A stretch of 64,000 nt of DNA from Armatimonadota bacterium (lineage in GTDB: Bacteria > Armatimonadota > Chthonomonadetes > Chthonomonadales > Chthonomonadaceae): positions 62,001-126,000 of the forward strand of contig JAGWMJ010000003.1 of assembly GCA_028871815.1 (NCBI GenBank). The letters run 5' to 3'. Numbering within the stretch: the stretch's first letter is position 1; every line of letters starts with the position of its first letter. The notes beneath the pieces were generated by a model. It made no database searches. It was not told the DNA's origin and worked only from the letters and a program-made list of their open reading frames with translations. A program made the translations under genes and the position numbers. This document shows, one piece after another, positions 9,719 through 48,057 of the stretch.

Positions 9719-9804
9719 CGGGTGGGCCGTAATGTTGAGGCCGTAGGCCCGTGTCGCATGCCGAGGTGGCCCGGTGGGCCCGGCAGCAACCGGACTCTGT
9801 CCGC
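9719..9804. terminator. GC-rich inverted repeats between convergent genes
   Basis: The 86-bp spacer between two convergent genes holds GGCCC (9768-9772) facing GGGCC (9776-9780) with a 3-nt loop, and a looser GGGCC/GGCCC pair at 9724-9750. No T-run follows on either strand, so it is at best a weak bidirectional terminator. Confidence 0.3.
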
Positions 9805-16832: not shown

Positions 16833-18278
16833 TTACGGAGCGTGCGACGCGGCTGTATCACCATCGTGGCATAACACTACGTTTTGGCCAGACTGGTTGG
16901 TGGCAAGGTGTACCGGTTTTCGCCAAATGCGTGCGAGATACGCCAGAGTTCGTGATGTGTAATCTACATCCAGGTCCTTGCCGTCCCACGCATGCCGCAG
17001 CAGTAACTCGCCGCGGTGCATATAGTCGTCATCCTCAACAGTGATGATCGGTAAGCCGAAGTTGGTCATGCTGTCCACCAGGGTATCGCGTACCTTCTCC
17101 CAACCGGCGTCCTGCACTACCCACCTGGCTTCGCCACCAGAGTCATCGCGCCGGTACGTGTAGAGGTCCAGCCTCTCAACCAACGCGCGCGTCAGGTACT
17201 TACGCAGAAAGGTTACATCACACTCCATACTTCGAACCTCGAACAGCTTCTCCATGCCGCCGCCAGCCGCACGCTGGATCGGTTCTCCGCGCCAGTTTTC
17301 CTCTGGCGCCTCGTCACTGGTTTCGCCGTTCCAGCGCCGCTCGATGTCCCGCAGGATGGTGTAACCCACATAGTAGGGGTTGATGGTCATGCGTGATCCC
17401 GGGGAGATGACCGAAGCATGCAGCCGGCGGAACTCGAGGTGCTCCTCCGGCGTCAACGGAAGACTGGTGAGAATTCGCTCATGCCAGAACGAGGCCCAGC
17501 CCTCGTTGAGGATCTTTGTGCGCATTTGAGGGATGAAGTAAAGGGTCTCATCGCGGACGATATCGAGGATGTCGCGCTGCCACCGCGCCAGACTGGGCGC
17601 ACGGTCACGCAAGAAACCGAGGAGATCGCGCGTCGGCTCCGGGGCTGCAGGTGAAGCGTCTCCGGCCGGCCGCTTTTCTACGCGGATATTCCATAGGTCA
17701 TCGTATTCCGTGCCGGACAGCGAGGATGGCGCCTTACCACTGCCTTCATCCGGTTCAACCGGCGGGCGAAACTCGGCAGTCAGGCCCGGGTCAAAGTTGT
17801 CGGCAAGCGCAAGCGCTCCGTCGAGAAACAGCTCTACGGTATCCGTGCCGATGGTCTCCTCATACTTTCTAATCCGGTTACCATGTACACGAACCTGCTC
17901 GACCATCTGTCTGTTCGTACGCTCAAAGTAGGTGTTGTTCTTGAAGAAGTCGTTGTGCCCCAGCACATGCGCCACCACAAACTTGTGCGCGAGCATAGAG
18001 TTGCTGTCCAGCAAGAACGCCTGGCACGGATCGGTGTTGAACACAATCTCGTAGATGCGGGCAAGTCCGTATTCGTAAAGCGTCTTTTGGTGATGGTAGT
18101 CGCGGCCAAACGTCCAGTGCGAGAATCGCGCGGGCAGCCCGTAACTACCGAGCTCGTAAATGACGTGGTCCGGCGCCACCTCAAAGTGGGTTGGATAGAA
18201 GTCGAGGCCGCTCTGATGCGCTGCCTCCTGAATCAGGTCAATCCACCGTTCCAAATCGGCCCTTTCGGATGCGTTCAT
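16833..18278 (-). CDS. spoVR: SpoVR family protein
   Basis: Protein of 481 residues, homologous to Bacillus SpoVR and Escherichia YcgB; the biochemical role is not established. Family features include YPTHFEVAPDHVIYELGSYG, YEYGLARIYEIVFNTDPC, the VVAHVLGHNDFFKNN stretch and NEGWASFWHERIL, whose His/Glu pattern suggests a metal site. The ORF extends upstream to 18371 but ATG 18278 fits the family and overlaps the yeaH stop by 4 bp (ATGA). It is the last gene of a prkA-yeaH-spoVR operon linked to stationary-phase and stress responses. Confidence 0.93.
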   Translation of the reverse strand: MNASERADLERWIDLIQEAAHQSGLDFYPTHFEVAPDHVIYELGSYGLPARFSHWTFGRDYHHQKTLYEYGLARIYEIVFNTDPCQAFLLDSNSMLAHKFVVAHVLGHNDFFKNNTYFERTNRQMVEQVRVHGNRIRKYEETIGTDTVELFLDGALALADNFDPGLTAEFRPPVEPDEGSGKAPSSLSGTEYDDLWNIRVEKRPAGDASPAAPEPTRDLLGFLRDRAPSLARWQRDILDIVRDETLYFIPQMRTKILNEGWASFWHERILTSLPLTPEEHLEFRRLHASVISPGSRMTINPYYVGYTILRDIERRWNGETSDEAPEENWRGEPIQRAAGGGMEKLFEVRSMECDVTFLRKYLTRALVERLDLYTYRRDDSGGEARWVVQDAGWEKVRDTLVDSMTNFGLPIITVEDDDYMHRGELLLRHAWDGKDLDVDYTSRTLAYLARIWRKPVHLATNQSGQNVVLCHDGDTAASHAP

Positions 18279-19444
18279 GATGCCACCTTCGCCATGACGC
18301 CCGGCTGCCGGCTGAAGAACCGTTGGAGAGCCGGCCAAACATCCTCGCGCGAGTTGATCTTGACCAGACACACACGTGGCTCACCGGCAAAAGCCTCGGC
18401 ATAAGCCTGGCCGAGCGGGGCAAACTCGAGAGACCTGCTCGCAACATCCTCGGCGATCTCGCCGTAGCCCACGAGATTACAGATCTCCACCATTTGGCGC
18501 ATCAGATCGACACATTCTGCGTCACCCCAGTTGTAGCCATCGGAGAACAGGAACGGATAGATGTTCCACTCTCTAGCGTTGTACCGACGCTCAATAATCT
18601 GCAGCGCCAGCCTGTACGCTTCACTCATCCGCGTTCCGCCGGAATCGCCGAGGCCAAAAAACGTATGCTCGTCTACCTCGTGCGCCTCCGTGTGGCACGT
18701 GATGAATACGATTTCAGCGCTCGCGTACCGGGTCTGGAGAAACCGCAGCATCCAGAAATAGAACGATCGGCATATATATGCCTCAAACTCGCCCATCGAT
18801 CCGGATACGTCACGCATCGCGAATACCACCGCGTTGCGGTGGGGCTCCGTAACCATCTCCCAGGTCTTAAACCTCAGGTCTTCCCGGTGCACGCTCCAGC
18901 CCGGCGTACCGCTCCGCGCATTGCGCCGCCATGCCTCAAGCAAGGTCCGTTTGCGGTCGAGGTTGGAAGCGATTCCGCGCCGGCTGATGCTGTTGAATTC
19001 CGCCTGCTCGGACGGAATCTGCTGCACGCCACGCTCCTGCAGGTTCGGTAAGAACAGGTCCTCAAAAACCAGTTCCGCAAGCTCCTCCACCGTTAGCTCC
19101 GCTTCGTAGAAGTCGACTCCCGGCTCGGTCCCCGCCTCCTTGCCGGTTCCTTCCGCGGAAGCTGGCGCACGCCCGATGACGTCCCCCGGGCGTGTGCCCC
19201 CCGGACCCTGGCCAACATGCTCGGTGTCGTTGTCACCGTATCGGATTCGCGGCAGCTCCAGCCCTCGCACCGGCAGCTTGACGATTTTGCCCTGGTCAGC
19301 GGTGATGATATCCTGCTGACTGATAATCGCGCCAAGGTTACGCCTAATAGCCTCTTTAACCTTTTGGTTGTGCCGCTCCCGATCTCGATCCGCGCGGTGG
19401 TGCAAGTCCCACGCATCGGTGCTCAGCGAGAAGTCAGCGTCCAT
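18275..19444 (-). CDS. YeaH/YhbH family protein (DUF444)
   Basis: Protein of 389 residues in the DUF444 family, predicted to contain a von Willebrand A-like fold. A MIDAS-like RDVSGSMG (D-x-S-x-S) occurs in AVVFAMRDVSGSMG, followed by FITCHTEAHEVDEHTFFGLG and later SDGYNWGD, both normal for the family. The basic N-terminus HHRADRDRERHNQKVK is typical too. It sits between prkA (28-bp gap) and spoVR (4-bp overlap). In other bacteria the trio is co-expressed under starvation; a substrate of the PrkA kinase or an adaptor role is a reasonable guess. Confidence 0.93.
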   Translation of the reverse strand: MDADFSLSTDAWDLHHRADRDRERHNQKVKEAIRRNLGAIISQQDIITADQGKIVKLPVRGLELPRIRYGDNDTEHVGQGPGGTRPGDVIGRAPASAEGTGKEAGTEPGVDFYEAELTVEELAELVFEDLFLPNLQERGVQQIPSEQAEFNSISRRGIASNLDRKRTLLEAWRRNARSGTPGWSVHREDLRFKTWEMVTEPHRNAVVFAMRDVSGSMGEFEAYICRSFYFWMLRFLQTRYASAEIVFITCHTEAHEVDEHTFFGLGDSGGTRMSEAYRLALQIIERRYNAREWNIYPFLFSDGYNWGDAECVDLMRQMVEICNLVGYGEIAEDVASRSLEFAPLGQAYAEAFAGEPRVCLVKINSREDVWPALQRFFSRQPGVMAKVAS

Positions 19445-19472: not shown

Positions 19473-21434
19473 TCACCGGTTCAGCAGCGTACCAACATAC
19501 CGCAGCAGCTCATTGGCCGATTCCGGCACATAGCCCTGTTCACGGCACATGCGCTCTACCACTTCGTTGACCTTCTTCTGCTGCTCGATGTCCGGCGTCT
19601 TTGTGTTTGTAGTTATTTTTACGATATCCTTGAGATCGGTGAACAGCTTCTTTTCAAGCGCCTCGCGCAACCGCTCGTCCGAGGCCACGCTAAAGGCCTG
19701 TCCGCGACGCATCAGGGAAGCGACGCTGCGCATAATGCCTTCCCGGAACTCGCGCTTGGCGTTCTCGGTGACGCTGATCTGCTCTTCAATGGATCGCATC
19801 AACCGCTCGTCGGGATCCACATCCTCGCCGGTGATCGGGTGCTTCACCTTCTCATGGTTGCAGAACGCCTCCACGTTATCGATGTAGTTATCGAGCAGGG
19901 TCCGGGCTGACTCTTCGTAGGAGTAGACGAACGCGCGCTGCACTTCCTTCTTGGCCATCTCATCGAACTCTTTGCGGACTTCGTCGATGAAGCCCATCAG
20001 CCGATGCCGCTCCTCCTCGCTTGTGGTGTACTCCACCACGCTATCGCGAAGCGAGCGCAGAACGTCGATTGGTGTAACGAAGTGGCGGCCACTCTTCACC
20101 AACACGGCGGATATCCGGTTGATGATAAACCGCGGTGATACACCGTTCATGCCCTCATCCTGAAACTCGTCGTGCAGTTCTCGCACGTGTCTCTGGTCCC
20201 AGTCGCCGACCTGCTTTTCGCCGTCGTAAAGCTTCATCTTGGCCACCAGCGAGAGCCCGGCCTTCCGGCTGGCTTTCAGCCGGGTGAGTATTGCGAACAT
20301 GCTCGCGACTCGCAGCGTATGCGGCGCAATATGGATTCGCGCCAGGTCAAGATCCGATCCCACGTCGTGGACGTCGCTTTGACCGATGAGCTTTTCGTAG
20401 ATACGAACTTCCTCAGAGACACGCAGGTTGTATGGCACCTTGACCACGAAGATGCGATCTATCATCGCCTCGTTCTCTTTGTTTCCGAAGTAGGAGTTGT
20501 ATTCGTACTCGTTGGTGTGCGCGATGACCATGACGTCGCAGTAGATCAGCGCAAACCGGCTCGCTTTGATAGTCTGCTCTCCCGCCACGGTATTCAACTC
20601 GTACAGGAACCGCTTTTCCGCCTTCAACATCTCGATGAACTCCATAACACCACGATTCGCGATGTTGAGTTCGCCGTCAAAGTTGTAAGCGCGCGGATCC
20701 GACTCGCGTCCGAACTCGGTAAGCGCCTGAATGTTGACGCTGCCGGTGAGCTCTGCCACATCCTGGCTTTTTGGATCCGCAGGTTTGAATGTGCCAATAC
20801 CGACGCGGTTCTTTTCCGAGAAAAAGATCCGTTGCACCGGTACACCCTGCGTGTTGCCGTGCCACTCATGGTCCAGCCGGTACCTACAGACCGGGCATAG
20901 GTCGCCTTCGATATACACCCCATAATCGCGCCTGAAATCGGCGCGCAATTCATCCGGAACAAGATGCAGTGGCTCTTCATGCATCGGGCAGTCACGGATG
21001 GCGTACATGGCGCCGACGTCGGTTCTGGAGTACTGCTCCATACCACGCTTGATCAGCGAGACCAGCGTCGACTTTCCGCCTCCAACGGGTCCAACAAGCA
21101 TGAGGATCCGCTTGCGAATATCCAGCCGGCGTGAAGCCGGGTTGAGATACTCTTCCACAAGCTGCTGCAGGGTCCGCTCCAGGCCGTACAGTTCGTCAAG
21201 GAAGAAGCGGTACCGCCGCGGCTGGCCCTCCGGCGTCTCCTCCATACCCGCCGCCATAATCATGTTGTATGTTCTGGCGTGAGCAAGGTCCACCACCGCA
21301 CGCTTCTTGCTGACGATATCGAGATACTCGGCAAACGTGCCTTCCCAGGCAAGCGCGCGCTCCTGGCTCCGCTGCTCCTCGACTCGCTTCAAAAACTCGG
21401 TCGGATTCTGCTGTTCCATCTTCCTGGCTCCCAT
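19473..21434 (-). CDS. prkA: PrkA family serine protein kinase
   Basis: AAA-type ATPase/kinase of 653 residues, homologous to Bacillus PrkA and Escherichia YeaG. Walker A is LVGPVGGGKSTLVSLIKRG at about residues 113-131; the segment DCPMHEEPLHLVP and the FSEKNRVGIGTF region are diagnostic. The C-terminal third carries the helical PrkA kinase domain. ATG 21434 is the longest start; ATG 21419 is possible but its AGGA is too close. It is first in the operon with yeaH and spoVR, and its leader (21435-21795) is unusually rich in hairpins, which may reflect regulation. Confidence 0.94.
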   Translation of the reverse strand: MGARKMEQQNPTEFLKRVEEQRSQERALAWEGTFAEYLDIVSKKRAVVDLAHARTYNMIMAAGMEETPEGQPRRYRFFLDELYGLERTLQQLVEEYLNPASRRLDIRKRILMLVGPVGGGKSTLVSLIKRGMEQYSRTDVGAMYAIRDCPMHEEPLHLVPDELRADFRRDYGVYIEGDLCPVCRYRLDHEWHGNTQGVPVQRIFFSEKNRVGIGTFKPADPKSQDVAELTGSVNIQALTEFGRESDPRAYNFDGELNIANRGVMEFIEMLKAEKRFLYELNTVAGEQTIKASRFALIYCDVMVIAHTNEYEYNSYFGNKENEAMIDRIFVVKVPYNLRVSEEVRIYEKLIGQSDVHDVGSDLDLARIHIAPHTLRVASMFAILTRLKASRKAGLSLVAKMKLYDGEKQVGDWDQRHVRELHDEFQDEGMNGVSPRFIINRISAVLVKSGRHFVTPIDVLRSLRDSVVEYTTSEEERHRLMGFIDEVRKEFDEMAKKEVQRAFVYSYEESARTLLDNYIDNVEAFCNHEKVKHPITGEDVDPDERLMRSIEEQISVTENAKREFREGIMRSVASLMRRGQAFSVASDERLREALEKKLFTDLKDIVKITTNTKTPDIEQQKKVNEVVERMCREQGYVPESANELLRYVGTLLNR

Positions 21435-21795
21435 ACTCTAAGCACAACTGCCACCGAAGTACCGCGCCGATTAATGAATACGCCCCGGTTCTGCCGAAAG
21501 GCATCACCGGGGCGCGTAAACGTTACTGCTGTCCGCGTCTGTGCCGACGCACTCGGTACTCGGTTCAGTACCTACCCGGTGCCCGCCCAATCCGACCGTC
21601 TGGTGGCGTCATCCGATATTCTTTCCTTTGCAGCGCATCCTCTATGAGGAGTGCTGACAACCTGTAGTACTGAATCACGGTGGCTGAATACACCCGTGAC
21701 TGTACCGTATATCACATCTGAGCTACTGCGGCCAAGCGTACCACATCGCGTTTTTGGCGATAGATCGCTGCACCGTGTTCCATGTGTGTGGCCAC
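21435..21795 (-). promoter_or_regulatory. Hairpin-rich spacer upstream of prkA
   Basis: No gene is found in these 361 bp. Four stem-loops are visible. First, CGCCCCGGT/ACCGGGGCG at 21481-21514, enclosing a TGCC-GAAA-GGCA tetraloop stem. Second, GGTACT/AGTACC at 21555-21572. Third, CAGC...TCCTC/GAGGA...GCTG at 21631-21656. Fourth, TCACGG/CCGTGA at 21675-21699. A dyad GTAA-ACG-TTAC lies at 21516-21526. Both flanking genes are on the minus strand, so this is the prkA leader and/or the trailer of the gene upstream. No good promoter was found. Confidence 0.5.
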
Positions 21796-24700
21796 TCATC
21801 GCCAACTGACGCGCACAACAACACCATCCGGGTCGTTTGGCCAAACGACGAGTACCGATCTACTGCCGTCATCCTGGATCAACTGTACAGGAATCTGCCG
21901 GCCAAGCATATCCACGCCACGGGCACCGATGGGCGTGCGACCTGCGGCAGAAATCCGAGCCGCCCCGTCAACGCCACGGGGACCGCGTACATACATCCCC
22001 GTTCGATCGGTGCTTTCCATTGTGGCCACAGTGCGGCCAGAGATAAAGTTGATATGTGGAATCGTGGGATGCGTAGACAGCTGGCACAACAGAGCCGTAG
22101 AGTGCGCCGGTAGATCACGAGTATCGGCTACCGCCAGTGTGGGCGAAAACAGGTCGATGGTAGGATCCGAGACGTGCACACCGCGGGCCCAGGCATGAAT
22201 GGCCGTAAACTGGCCGCGCTGCACCCTCAAAGCGCCCGGCTCGCTGTAATCACCCCCTGCGAGCTGGTAGGCATACTGCGTAAGCGCGCGCAAAAGCCCG
22301 GCGGCACGCTCGCTGCTGCTGAAGAACGCCGCGGGTACGCCGACATTAATAACGGCGCCTTTGCCGAAGCGCTGCATCCAGATTACACTGCCGCCAGACC
22401 GCAGCGTATAGAGACAACCACTCGTATGGTTTGTATTATGATCAATGCCAGAATACAGCGTTGCCGGCCAGGTGGCGCCGATTCTCAACCTGGGGAACGC
22501 CCGCGCAAGCGGATCATCCGGTCCCGCAGCGAGCAAAGTGTGACCCAGATCGGGCTGAACCGAGGCGGCGCCTACAGAGAACCCGCCCGCAATATCCAGC
22601 CGGAGCGTCACGTGGGCGCCAGCAGGGATGTTATCGAATCGGTAGGTCCAGTTGCCGGAGCCTGCTACCGTGCGCGCGCCTTCAGCAATGCTGCTGCCGT
22701 TGTCGTATTCGATGAAGCGGTTCTCAAGGTCCGTCCCAACAACAAACGCGGCGGCAAGCGCTCCGTTGATGTGCAGCTCAAGGCTATAGAGTTGTACCGG
22801 AGGCTGTCCGGAAGACCCCGTGCTGAAGTTCAACGCCACACTGCCGCCTTTGGAGCATTCCGACGATATGTCAACCGAACGATTCAAACGGTTGCCGGTT
22901 AGGGACCCGCTCGGCGCGACCAGCACCGGCGCATACTGCCGTCCGAGCTCCGCCGGCCCGTTCACCGTATGCGGTGCTCCCGCGTCGCCAACGCCGCACG
23001 CTTGCAGGAGGCTTTGTCCCGGCGTTGTAGCTCCTGCGCCGAGCCACCAACTGCCGGGCACCGCGTTGAAGGGATCGGACCCCCCGAACAGTACGAGACT
23101 TCCGCCATTTCGCACCCAACTGGCCAGCGCCTGGTCCGTGGCGGCCGAGAGCGGCTTCTGGTAATCGAAACTAAGCAGCAGCGTCTTGTAGCCTGCGAGG
23201 TAGCCAGGCGAGGTCACACGGTCGAGGCTGAGCGCCTGGACGGGTACGCCTCGGCGCAGCAGCGGCAGCGTGAGGCCGAAAAAGCCGTCCAGCGAGTCGC
23301 CGGAACCCGGTCCGCGCTGCCACTGCATGGTGTCGGATGTAAACGCGCCGATACCCGGTGGCCCAGACGACTGAGTTTCCGCTTGCGAGTCGCCAATCTG
23401 CTGGAGCGCGGCGACCACGCTGTCAACCTCCAACGCGTAGTCCGGCGGAATCCGACCATAAACGCGCTCGGGCCAGGGCATCACTTCCCAGGCATTTACG
23501 GATGGAAACATCAGCGCTGCTGCCGCGGTCTCCTCGTAGTGTGAGCGATAGTCCTGCATGGTTCGCGCAGGATCGTCCTCAACCGGGTCCATCAGGAACC
23601 AGAGCTTCTTGCCGGTTCCGCGCATCAACTGGGCCAATGACGAGTACTCGAGCCACGCAAGCGAAAACGTCCTGTCGCGCCGTATGCCGGCGTACGGCAC
23701 CGGCGTGCGGGCTGTACCGGTCCAGACCTGGCCGACAACCTGCTGCACCTGCGGCAGCTGCGCGATTGCTGCTTGAGGGCAAACGATGCCCCACATCGCA
23801 TAGTTCAGTGGACTGTGGAATGCTACGAGTCGCTTTGCGGTTGGCGCGTGATTCTCTACGGATGACAAAACGTCGCCAATGTGAGCGGCTTCCAGCTTGG
23901 CCATCGTCTGCCCTGCGGCCCAACGCGCCGCGGCACTGGATGCAGGATCTTGCCACGCCTGACCTGTCATTGCCCGAAATGCCGCTTTGAAATCCGCCTC
24001 ATATCCGGCGGACGCCCAATACTCCGGCTCCTCCAGGCACACGCCCTGTGAGCCGGCATCCAGTGCGCTGATAAACGCCGAGCTCTCTGCAGCGCTTCGT
24101 GCAGGTGTTGGCGTTACGTAGTAGCTATCGGCAATATGCAGTGGCTGACCATTTGCGGAGCGCTGTACCCCGCCGGGATGCGCTTTTGCGAACGCTCCAT
24201 TTGCGCGCGAACCTCCCATTGTCCACACCCGATAGCCACGCTCTTTCCACGAACCGATTACGAGAGGATCGTCGGTGTAGGCGAACACCGCGTCTGTCTG
24301 TAAGTCGATCTGCGGAGCCGCGGCCTGGGGCGTTTGGGTGACGGTAACCGGCGAAGCGGGGCGGCGCACCACGTGAATTGGTGGGTGGTCTGTCAACCCC
24401 TGGAGCAGGAACTCAGGCACGGAATCTGGTAGGCCGGGATGAACGGTAGATGCCAATGTCTGGCTGTACAATAGGCTGGACATGTTCGCGGCGCCGGACT
24501 TGGCCGATACCATAACTTCCACGGCGGCTCCGGTCCAACCAGCAGGCATTCTCCAGGTCGTAGTCTCGGCTCCGCCGACGTGCGAAGATGTCGACGGCAG
24601 CGGTTTTCCGTTCGGATCCAGTGGCGCCGCCGACAGGCCGGCTGCCGTGGCGTTTAACGTGAGACTGCAGTCGGACCCTCGGGAGGCGGGTAGGGCATAG

Positions 24701-24909
24701 ACGGCGAAGGCGCCCGCCGGAAACACGCGCAGCGAGCCACTAAGCGTGGTTGCGCTGTTCTTGACGATTGCCGATGCCTCGGCTGGCTGGCCGGGAATCA
24801 GTGAGACCGGATAGAGGGGCGGAATGGCCATGGAACACGGTGAGGATAGCGCCGCGGCCAGCAAGAACACCAGCAGTGCGATCGGGTGGGCGTTAGTTAT
24901 TCGGCGCAT
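21796..24909 (-). CDS. Very large secreted protein, glycosidase-like architecture
   Basis: Exported protein of 1037 residues that I do not recognise as a named family. A signal peptide spans residues 1-28 (ALLVFLLAAALSSPCSMA). The middle (about 230-560) reads like a TIM-barrel glycoside hydrolase with VCLEEPEYWA and LWFLMDPVEDD as candidate acidic sites. Near 600-650, LLLSFDYQKPLSAAT and WVRNGGSLVLFGG resemble the amidotransferase-like trimerisation domain of GH42-type galactosidases. Beta-rich segments follow to the C-terminus. It overlaps the TPR gene's stop by 17 bp and ends the rpoZ-dnaJ operon. Function is inferred only from architecture. Confidence 0.6.
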   Translation of the reverse strand: MRRITNAHPIALLVFLLAAALSSPCSMAIPPLYPVSLIPGQPAEASAIVKNSATTLSGSLRVFPAGAFAVYALPASRGSDCSLTLNATAAGLSAAPLDPNGKPLPSTSSHVGGAETTTWRMPAGWTGAAVEVMVSAKSGAANMSSLLYSQTLASTVHPGLPDSVPEFLLQGLTDHPPIHVVRRPASPVTVTQTPQAAAPQIDLQTDAVFAYTDDPLVIGSWKERGYRVWTMGGSRANGAFAKAHPGGVQRSANGQPLHIADSYYVTPTPARSAAESSAFISALDAGSQGVCLEEPEYWASAGYEADFKAAFRAMTGQAWQDPASSAAARWAAGQTMAKLEAAHIGDVLSSVENHAPTAKRLVAFHSPLNYAMWGIVCPQAAIAQLPQVQQVVGQVWTGTARTPVPYAGIRRDRTFSLAWLEYSSLAQLMRGTGKKLWFLMDPVEDDPARTMQDYRSHYEETAAAALMFPSVNAWEVMPWPERVYGRIPPDYALEVDSVVAALQQIGDSQAETQSSGPPGIGAFTSDTMQWQRGPGSGDSLDGFFGLTLPLLRRGVPVQALSLDRVTSPGYLAGYKTLLLSFDYQKPLSAATDQALASWVRNGGSLVLFGGSDPFNAVPGSWWLGAGATTPGQSLLQACGVGDAGAPHTVNGPAELGRQYAPVLVAPSGSLTGNRLNRSVDISSECSKGGSVALNFSTGSSGQPPVQLYSLELHINGALAAAFVVGTDLENRFIEYDNGSSIAEGARTVAGSGNWTYRFDNIPAGAHVTLRLDIAGGFSVGAASVQPDLGHTLLAAGPDDPLARAFPRLRIGATWPATLYSGIDHNTNHTSGCLYTLRSGGSVIWMQRFGKGAVINVGVPAAFFSSSERAAGLLRALTQYAYQLAGGDYSEPGALRVQRGQFTAIHAWARGVHVSDPTIDLFSPTLAVADTRDLPAHSTALLCQLSTHPTIPHINFISGRTVATMESTDRTGMYVRGPRGVDGAARISAAGRTPIGARGVDMLGRQIPVQLIQDDGSRSVLVVWPNDPDGVVVRVSWR

Positions 24910-29050: not shown

Positions 29051-29080
29051 AACAACTGGAGGGGCAGACTAGCCCAAGTG

Positions 29081-29110
29081 CTGCCGGTTCCAACCGGCAG
29101 CCGGGCCCGG
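29081..29110. repeat. Inverted repeat between rpoZ and dnaJ
   Basis: CTGCCGGTT (29081-29089) and AACCGGCAG (29092-29100) are perfect reverse complements separated by CC, directly followed by the palindrome CCGGGCCCGG (29101-29110). It lies in the 63-bp spacer between two same-strand genes. It could attenuate transcription, be an RNA-processing site or a REP-like element; no T-run accompanies it. Confidence 0.6.
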
Positions 29111-29113
29111 TCT

Positions 29114-45972: not shown

Positions 45973-48057
45973 TTATCTCTCCTCCTGGCCGAGTTGCAGC
46001 CTCGCAGTCTGATCGCCATCCGGCCGAAGTAACTGCACCGGGTCGCTATCGGCGCTGTGACCGGCCGGACGAACCAATTCGTGAGACGGAGTCACGCTGC
46101 CGCCGGACGGCCGCAGCAGTACAGCCGCGTCGGTATTCATTCCCCGTATTGCAGCCGCTGCATCTCGGGCACGCTTTGCATCGGCGCCACCGGCAGCGGC
46201 AATGCGTTCCAGAACCGGCAGCGCGCGCATGTCGCCTAATGTGACGAGGCCCGCGATACCTGCAGCCGGCAGCCCGGGAGCATAGGAGTTGGCGATGTCG
46301 CATAGCGCATCGAACGCAGCCGGCAACCTGCGCGCTGCAATCGTATTCGCAGCTGCAAATCGGATCGGCTCGCCGAAATCGATTGCCACAGACTTGCGTT
46401 GGCCGGCTGTCTCCTCGCTGCCATACTCCACCCCGAATCGCACCACGCGCAGCGCTGCCACCAGCGTGGTCTCCGTTTCGGGCGATATCTCCAGTCGCCT
46501 ATCGCTCAAGAGGTTGCAGCAAGCTGCTCCATACGCGGAAACGGGTCCGAGCCCAGCGACTGGCGCGGTTAACAGGCATGTTGAGGCACAATTGAGACCT
46601 AGCCTGAGCATTGGCTCCATGTCGCGAGATACAGGTAGGGCAGGCGACGATTCGATGCGTTCATTGCGCAACGCTGCACGCATCACAGAGCCCCACTTCC
46701 TCAGCGCACGGGCGGCGCGAACGCCTGCATCCGGCTCGCCGACCGCGAGCGCCTTTGCCACAGCTACCGGACTTTGGCGTACTACAACCTCAGCAATGCA
46801 GAAGGCAAACTGTTCGCCAAGGCGATCTCCGAGGCTGGAAAGCGCCGTGGATGCCGCATCACGCACTCCACCATCCACCGCGCATGCCGCACAGCGCAGC
46901 GCATTGATCGCCTCATCGCGCGGCATCCGGCTTGCGGCTGCCAATGCGGCAACTTTATTGATCGCACCGATGCGGATACCGCCTAGAGTGTCACCCCGTG
47001 TAAGCTGTGCCGCCAACTTCGCCGCCATCTCGGCCGACCCCGGCGATGCTGCCAGTGCGTCGAGCCAGGTCAGCGCCGGGCCGGCGGGATCCGATGTCCT
47101 TTCAACGCCAATGGCCGCCGCCAGAGACGCAGGTAGAACCAGTTGCTCTACGTCGAGGCGGTAACGATGGCCGTCCGAGCTGGAATCCGCCAGATTCAGC
47201 AGATATCCCCGGACGATCTCCTGCCACCCTGATGGAGCGGAAGCCGAAGCCACGCGAGCGCCATGGCAACTGGCGTAACCAGCAGCCAGGGCGTCGAGAA
47301 TTGCCGGGGCAGCCGCCGCAGTGCCAAGCGTCACGGCAAGGCCATCCGCAGCAAGGTCTCGTACTGCTTGCTCCTCGTCGTACAATAGACGACCAAGAAC
47401 CTGCCGCGTATCCGGGTGCGATACACTCGCCAGGCTCCGCGCCGCCATTAACCGAACCTCAGATGAACCTGACTCAGCCATTTGAGCCAGTGCTGAGACA
47501 GCTTCCGCCCCAAACAGCGGCATCAGATTGAGAAATGCAGCGGGTGATTCGAGACACGTAGCCGTGATTGCAGGAATCGCCGCCGGGTCGCGCCAATTTC
47601 GCCAAACTGCCGCGATCACGGAGCGGGTAGGCGACAGACCCAACGCATCGTCCGGCTCGGAATTACGAACAAATGGTTTCGCAGTCGCTTGACTCCATGC
47701 CTCGATAAGAGGCTGCATCATGTGCTCACTGCCAGATGCAATCAAGGCATCACGGAGCGGCCCTACAAACGTGCTCCAGTGGTGATTGTGCCGCGTCAAC
47801 CTGTCCAGAAGCAGGCTGTCATCCTCGGACCCAAGTCGGATTGCGGCCGCTGCGGCGGCAAACTGCGCACGGGGAGCGATGCCGCAACGGCGAGCGATCA
47901 TAACCTGCGGGAGAGCCGCGCGACCTTCCGCTACGAGTTGTTCAACACAGGACGAGATGCCCAGGCTGGCCACTGCGGTCTGCGAAAGCGCGCTAAAGAT
48001 GCGCCCCTGTGCGGCAAAGCCCCCATTCGCTGGTGCATTCGGTGCTGGTCTGGTCAT
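45973..48057 (-). CDS. HEAT-repeat protein
   Basis: Protein of 694 residues built of Ala-rich helical repeats of the HEAT/PBS-lyase type, for example SSEVRLMAARSLASVSHPDT, EQAVRDLAADGLAVTLGTAA and DMRALPVLERIAAAGG. No enzymatic motif or signal peptide is evident, so a scaffold or interaction role is likely. Alanine content is high and repeats occur in at least three blocks (about 150-280, 350-470, 600-670). ATG 48057 faces the HD-domain gene across a 151-bp spacer with a long inverted repeat. The thioesterase gene follows 20 bp downstream. Confidence 0.75.
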   Translation of the reverse strand: MTRPAPNAPANGGFAAQGRIFSALSQTAVASLGISSCVEQLVAEGRAALPQVMIARRCGIAPRAQFAAAAAAIRLGSEDDSLLLDRLTRHNHHWSTFVGPLRDALIASGSEHMMQPLIEAWSQATAKPFVRNSEPDDALGLSPTRSVIAAVWRNWRDPAAIPAITATCLESPAAFLNLMPLFGAEAVSALAQMAESGSSEVRLMAARSLASVSHPDTRQVLGRLLYDEEQAVRDLAADGLAVTLGTAAAAPAILDALAAGYASCHGARVASASAPSGWQEIVRGYLLNLADSSSDGHRYRLDVEQLVLPASLAAAIGVERTSDPAGPALTWLDALAASPGSAEMAAKLAAQLTRGDTLGGIRIGAINKVAALAAASRMPRDEAINALRCAACAVDGGVRDAASTALSSLGDRLGEQFAFCIAEVVVRQSPVAVAKALAVGEPDAGVRAARALRKWGSVMRAALRNERIESSPALPVSRDMEPMLRLGLNCASTCLLTAPVAGLGPVSAYGAACCNLLSDRRLEISPETETTLVAALRVVRFGVEYGSEETAGQRKSVAIDFGEPIRFAAANTIAARRLPAAFDALCDIANSYAPGLPAAGIAGLVTLGDMRALPVLERIAAAGGADAKRARDAAAAIRGMNTDAAVLLRPSGGSVTPSHELVRPAGHSADSDPVQLLRPDGDQTARLQLGQEER

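Follow-up and report, generated by a model that had tools for sequence, protein, structure and literature searches.

A terminator-like hairpin ahead of the prkA-yeaH-spoVR operon of an Armatimonadota bacterium, with comparable hairpins before prkA in relatives

The spacer upstream of the prkA-yeaH-spoVR operon in the 64,000-nucleotide stretch analysed here (the window) holds one hairpin, at 21481–21514, that folds well beyond chance and stands before prkA, and comparable hairpins precede prkA in many relatives. Our best reading, a tentative one that we would not quite call probable, is that it is a terminator in the prkA leader that works as an attenuator. That transcription terminates at the hairpin, that in this genome its promoter lies further upstream and that the termination is regulated are what we infer from the form of the hairpin and from the leaders of relatives.

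The hairpin and the operon

An earlier reading of the letters without database searches (the sequence-only reading) had proposed a prkA-yeaH-spoVR operon, and Pfam confirms it on the minus strand with the accessions given below. PrkA is a widespread AAA+/kinase protein linked to stress, and the nearest relatives of the window are Chthonomonadaceae (Armatimonadota) MAGs. The longest prkA ORF begins at 21434; we picked ATG 21419 as the start by comparing the N-termini of relatives, with which it agrees better. The longest spoVR ORF overlaps yeaH and its real start may be later, and the sole Pfam trace in the gene upstream of the spacer is a sub-threshold DUF4350. The features are as follows.

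16833–18371, minus strand: spoVR (PF04293, PF24755), longest ORF
18275–19444, minus strand: yeaH (DUF444, PF04285)
19473–21419, minus strand: prkA (PF08298, PF06798), ATG at 21419
21420–21432, minus strand: likely ribosome-binding region (GGGAG, AGGAAG) before ATG 21419, read from the letters
21435–21795, minus strand: spacer from the upstream gene to prkA; hairpin aside, structure at the level of shuffled sequence
21471–21480, minus strand: U-rich tail TATTCATTAA, an imperfect U-tract with 5 T in the first 8
21481–21514, minus strand: terminator-like hairpin, from sequence and fold (−27.7 kcal/mol)
21796–24909, minus strand: upstream co-directional gene, 1037 aa, called as an ORF

On the plus strand the hairpin reads CGCCCCGGT-TC-TGCC-GAAA-GGCA-TC-ACCGGGGCG, and the sequence-only reading was correct in giving it a GAAA tetraloop and a nine-base outer stem on that strand. 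Read on the minus strand, it consists of a 9-bp GC outer stem (CGCCCCGGT/ACCGGGGCG), a GA/GA internal loop, an inner stem of 4 bp and a UUUC loop; a GA/GA internal loop forms a stable tandem sheared pair. Folded in isolation the hairpin reaches −27.7 kcal/mol on the minus strand and −26.5 kcal/mol on the plus strand. The best 40-nt fold in the spacer (minus strand) is −30.5 kcal/mol, against −16.7 ± 2.2 kcal/mol in 100 dinucleotide shuffles, the lowest of which reached −25.2 kcal/mol. The stable GC-rich stem of an intrinsic terminator is thus present, beyond the level of shuffled sequence. The stem is followed on the minus strand by the U-rich UAUUCAUU; taken as a U-tract, the tail TATTCATT has 5/8 T and lacks a long run. 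This tail sets the hairpin on the minus strand, an orientation that the covariance model score described below likewise favours. Among T-tailed hairpins in the 18 spacers of the window, that at 21481–21514 is the most stable (runner-up, −21.6 kcal/mol), and one lying within a gene, at 47389, is slightly more stable (−27.8 kcal/mol). A loose consensus scan of 20900–22200 returned a single terminator-like site, this hairpin, where shuffles gave 0.7.

prkA leaders in relatives

PrkA is encoded in 77/291 Armatimonadota genomes (E 0.001 or better), with a strong match in 65; 53 of these 65 supplied the leader set, and some of the 12 left out were truncated or distant. We found a comparable hairpin, chosen by hand, upstream of prkA in 29/53 leaders, and T-tailed hairpins at the −17 kcal/mol threshold in 24/53. 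The hairpin of L127 (−20.6, at −349) is counted in neither figure, and weaker hairpins were also left out of the 29. That number includes three hairpins with poor tails that were taken from the nine-pair score described below (L112, L115 and L142) and two that were counted despite values of −14.5 and −15.4 (L014 and L015). By family, the hairpin is found in 4/9 leaders of f1, 2/2 of f2, 3/3 of f3, 2/2 of f4, 9/9 of f6 (one genus), 1/1 of f13, 2/5 of f17, 4/4 of f18, 1/16 of f23, 1/1 of f24 and 0/1 of f9. No comparable hairpin was seen in five of the nine members of the window's own family, in 15/16 leaders of f23, in 3/5 of f17 or in L019.

The arms approach GYCYCGG/CCGRGGC in 24/29 hairpins, among which those of L007 and L009 show departures. 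The arms in f2 are ATTCCCGG, and the prkA-leader hairpins of f4 and f13 are unrelated to the GYCYCGG type. Across the aligned hairpins the arms are 99.1% paired with 13 double-changed cells, a result reached in 0/500 shuffles; this count is not evidence by itself, because the rows had been picked as hairpins.

At 24 loci, T-tailed hairpins with folds of −17 kcal/mol or below lie within 250 nt of prkA in 10 (11 counting one at exactly −17.0), and such hairpins occur in 5/44 control spacers (Fisher p 0.006 for 10 and 0.002 for 11, with leaders that are not independent). The controls are crude: genes were taken as the longest ORFs, two of the window's 'control' spacers overlap likely genes, and more prkA leaders may sit among them. 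One control hit, L039, proved to be prkA and was reassigned by hand, and the prkA count is manual as well. T-tailed hairpins number 205 in 536 kb (29 sources, both strands); nine of them carry the arm pattern and all nine sit at prkA, the pattern having been fixed after the leaders were inspected.

Two scoring schemes that exclude the window both recover its hairpin. The nine-pair score, trained on 11 hairpins from six families, places it first in the window among the matches listed (28.3 on the minus strand and 26.7 on the plus strand; next locus, 19.8) and gives held-out leaders 30.2 (L112), 26.5 (L142), 23.1 (L115) and 23.0 (L007); among the matches listed, it also gives 26.5 in L095 and 24.3 in L107 away from the leader. 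The covariance model R1, built from 13 hairpins, ranks the window hairpin first in the 64 kb (E 0.003; 19.8 bits on the minus strand, 14.4 on the plus strand). When R1 was run with strict filters against the 291 Armatimonadota genomes, 99 gave matches with E of at most 0.1. Of the best 150 matches listed, 13 lie at prkA, the top four included. Nine of these 13 are leaders in the training set and two belong to a training genus; the others are in G049 and G057. In the window's own genome, where 150 of 1075 candidates were scored, R1 returned two other places, with scores of 18.5 and 15.5 bits; the hairpin of the window itself is not among the returns from those 150. Since R1 also hits numerous loci other than prkA, such arms may belong to a widespread type of terminator. 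The 150 listed matches, 13 of them at prkA, do not show that the arms descend from a single prkA element.

Many of the 53 leaders carry promoter motifs: 31 have TATAAT, against 3.7 expected, and 28 have an ECF-like G[GA]AAY-N15-19-CGTM, against 2.4 expected, with motifs picked after inspection and expectations taken from mononucleotide shuffles. In 17/29 hairpin-bearing leaders the hairpin is preceded by TATAAT or a sigma-70-like site. All nine f6 leaders have invariant TTGACA and TATAAT upstream of the hairpin, at 365–394 nt and 321–350 nt before the aligned start, the hairpin ending 28–49 nt before it; because of these invariant motifs, the f6 hairpin very probably lies inside the prkA leader. 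The f6 leaders (L013, L113, L114 and L116–L121) are about 340 nt long, and in them a GCCCGTCTC-like stretch that precedes the hairpin can base-pair with the GAGACGGG ribosome-binding region that follows it. For this pairing RNAalifold on f6 gave no covariation, and two of 69 predicted pairs in the f6 leader are changed on both sides.

Attenuation and the competing readings

If the hairpin is an attenuator, RNA polymerase would start at a promoter upstream of 21514 and run into the hairpin, with its short U-rich tail, some 60 nt ahead of the prkA start. Some transcripts would end at the tail, which would set how much reaches prkA, and the others would get through with the help of a factor or because the 5' arm pairs elsewhere. 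The sequence-only reading had offered an attenuator, and this part of it survives as the best reading; it draws more on relatives than on the window, whose leader has none of four promoter motif classes and, in a consensus scan of the minus strand, no sigma-70-like site. The imperfect U-tract, this motif-less leader, the presence of the hairpin in just 4/9 family members, the unspecific model and the co-directional gene upstream all count against attenuation.

One candidate for an alternative pairing came from predicted folds of cut transcripts, and we offer it as a guess.

21575–21580, minus strand: ACCGGG, possible competing partner of the 5' arm at 21506–21511

When leaders are truncated just behind the 5' arm, folding predicts that this arm binds a segment upstream of it, with 21506–21511 paired to 21575–21580 in all three of the longer leaders checked; with the 3' arm included, the 5' arm is predicted to shift into the hairpin. 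An equally good complement arises in 24% of shuffles, so ACCGGG at 21575–21580 is not above chance as an antiterminator, and its competition for the 5' arm may be entertained as an idea. A search for such partners in 18 leaders exceeded chance at 0.05 in L142 only (p 0.02). In L112, L122, L124 and L126, CCGAGG(C), the complement of the 5' arm, occurs 43–99 nt upstream of the hairpin, singly not above chance (p 0.07–0.54).

The main rival, which we regard as a serious though rather unlikely explanation, makes the hairpin the terminator of the upstream gene at 21796–24909 and puts the prkA promoter at or after the hairpin. The gene is co-directional, as this would require, no promoter motif was found upstream of the hairpin in the window, and R1 finds such hairpins at many places in the phylum. 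Yet the hairpin starts 281 nt beyond the stop of that gene and its 3' end is 61 nt from the likely prkA start. Distances from ORF calls in relatives are of the same kind, with 318 nt (L009), 228 nt (L011), 338 nt (L122), 219 nt (L126) and ~370 nt (L044) between the upstream ORF and the hairpin, though in L037 it begins just ~90 nt beyond the ORF. Because of these distances, in the window and in relatives, the hairpin is better tied to prkA than to the upstream gene. Moreover, in L048 the upstream gene, which has Pfam support, is divergent and the hairpin is present, so that there it cannot be the trailer of that gene. L050 also has a divergent gene upstream, and a scan of even widths found no such hairpin in it.

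A hairpin that does not terminate, and that instead stabilises or helps to process the prkA 5' UTR or serves as a DNA dyad to which a regulator binds, is in our view distinctly unlikely. It would suit the weak or poor U-tracts of the window, L142, L115 and L112 and the stability of the GA/GA-bridged helix; several relatives, such as L010, L011 and L123, have clean U-tracts, which argues against it.

The remainder of the spacer bears on the last alternative. The four stem-loops and a dyad listed in the sequence-only reading (21481–21514, 21516–21526, 21555–21572, 21631–21656 and 21675–21699) are all present at or near those positions. Those other than the first do not exceed chance: perfect stems of at least 5 bp with loops of 3–12, the big hairpin not counted, number four against 2.4 expected, a count reached by 20% of shuffles, and those of at least 6 bp number one against 0.74. 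The claim in that reading that no other spacer comes near this density fails as a statement about density: among the 14 of 18 spacers for which z was computed, two others reach minus-strand values of −2.74 (9719–9804) and −2.47 (29051–29113). The whole spacer has z of −2.04 to −2.51 on the minus strand and −3.24 to −3.43 on the plus strand; with 21481–21514 removed it folds like shuffled sequence (−0.72 and −1.28, respectively; 200 shuffles), and the whole-spacer value therefore comes mainly from the single hairpin. That the entire spacer is a multi-stem structured RNA, for example a riboswitch, is thus highly improbable: its z, which would speak for this, is owed to one hairpin, Rfam gives the window no match at gathering score and 21300–21900 only two chance-level matches at E up to 10, and none of 30 further genomes from the order matches the spacer sequence. 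The structured RNA element offered by the sequence-only reading, taken as several linked stems, is accordingly unsupported, with one hairpin beyond chance, and conservation of the spacer across the order is rejected by the same 30 genomes. A REP-like repeat element was likewise rejected, further matches in the genome being 15–32 nt only, at E 2 or more.

The preferred reading, attenuation, has the general form of known intrinsic (Rho-independent) terminator-attenuators, in that an inferred promoter is followed, in the sense direction, by a GC-rich stem, a U-rich stretch and then the first gene. Unlike those systems, the window has an imperfect U-tract and no antiterminator beyond chance, and neither a ligand nor a leader peptide nor an RNA-binding protein is assigned to its leader. 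We found no prkA leader attenuator in the open-access literature searched, and nothing there on control of the prkA operon in Armatimonadota or Chloroflexota. As in the window operon, the E. coli yeaGH and Bacillus prkA systems centre on a homologous kinase/AAA+ gene, which the passages on them tie to starvation, stress or sporulation (PMC4664914, PMC13001217); the same passages yielded no leader hairpin or attenuation.

Other prkA leaders in Armatimonadota and Chloroflexota

A second terminator-like hairpin, with GGGC/GCCC arms, precedes prkA in Chloroflexota and in Armatimonadota f4 and f13. It resembles the window's hairpin in being terminator-like and in standing before the same gene, and differs in its arms (GGGC/GCCC, flanked by A and T) and in the loop CGACTCTAT, which several of these hairpins have in common. 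Of 33 additional loci, most of them from Chloroflexota, 22 have a hairpin of the GGGC type that folds at −14 kcal/mol or below; 19 of the 22 are alike in form and three (L077, L084 and L091) differ. The GGGC/GCCC loci are L067–L073, L075, L076, L078–L080, L083, L086–L088, L090, L095 and L097. Their outer stem stays paired through changes (TGG/CCA, AGG/CCT, AAA/TTT). A pattern search of nine genomes found the GGGC-type hairpin once at prkA in 7/9. G295 has one look-alike elsewhere in the genome, and G294 and G296, whose own leaders do not fit the pattern, gave no match to it. Those leaders with this hairpin that were searched against Rfam had no match.

Taken broadly, the prkA-yeaH-spoVR operons of Armatimonadota and Chloroflexota might be under lineage-specific leader terminators (GYCYCGG, including the window, and GGGC/CGACTCTAT), a class of cis-regulatory RNA absent from Rfam that would answer a common stress signal; we consider this proposal doubtful. 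If the leader hairpins do terminate in a regulated way, a reporter would reveal which signal the operon responds to in these two phyla, both of them large and mostly uncultured. By itself the instance in the window is modest, being one hairpin.

Other leaders are marked by conserved motifs. In Fimbriimonadales f23, AACCGATAAT is kept in 14/16 leaders (L127, L129, L131–L141 and L145), most f23 leaders have an ECF-like GAAACC/GGAACC-N16-CGTC ahead of AACCGATAAT, and TATAAT lies further upstream in 15/16 (L143 counted). These motifs are probably two promoters; we had considered the f23 leader as a conserved RNA on account of AACCGATAAT, and motif analysis fits the promoter reading better. L003, L004 and L008, members of the window's family that lack the hairpin, have an ECF-like GAAAY-N-CGTC near the prkA start, at −69 to −77.

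The Rfam search covered the window and 37 other loci, and a known RNA family at prkA leaders is rejected by the want of any match at the leaders searched; the other loci gave only tRNAs, off-leader Acido-Lenti-1 and chance matches. At L080:1432–1627, away from prkA, two Acido-Lenti-1 matches face each other, one at 37.1 bits (the gathering score) and one below it at 31.8.
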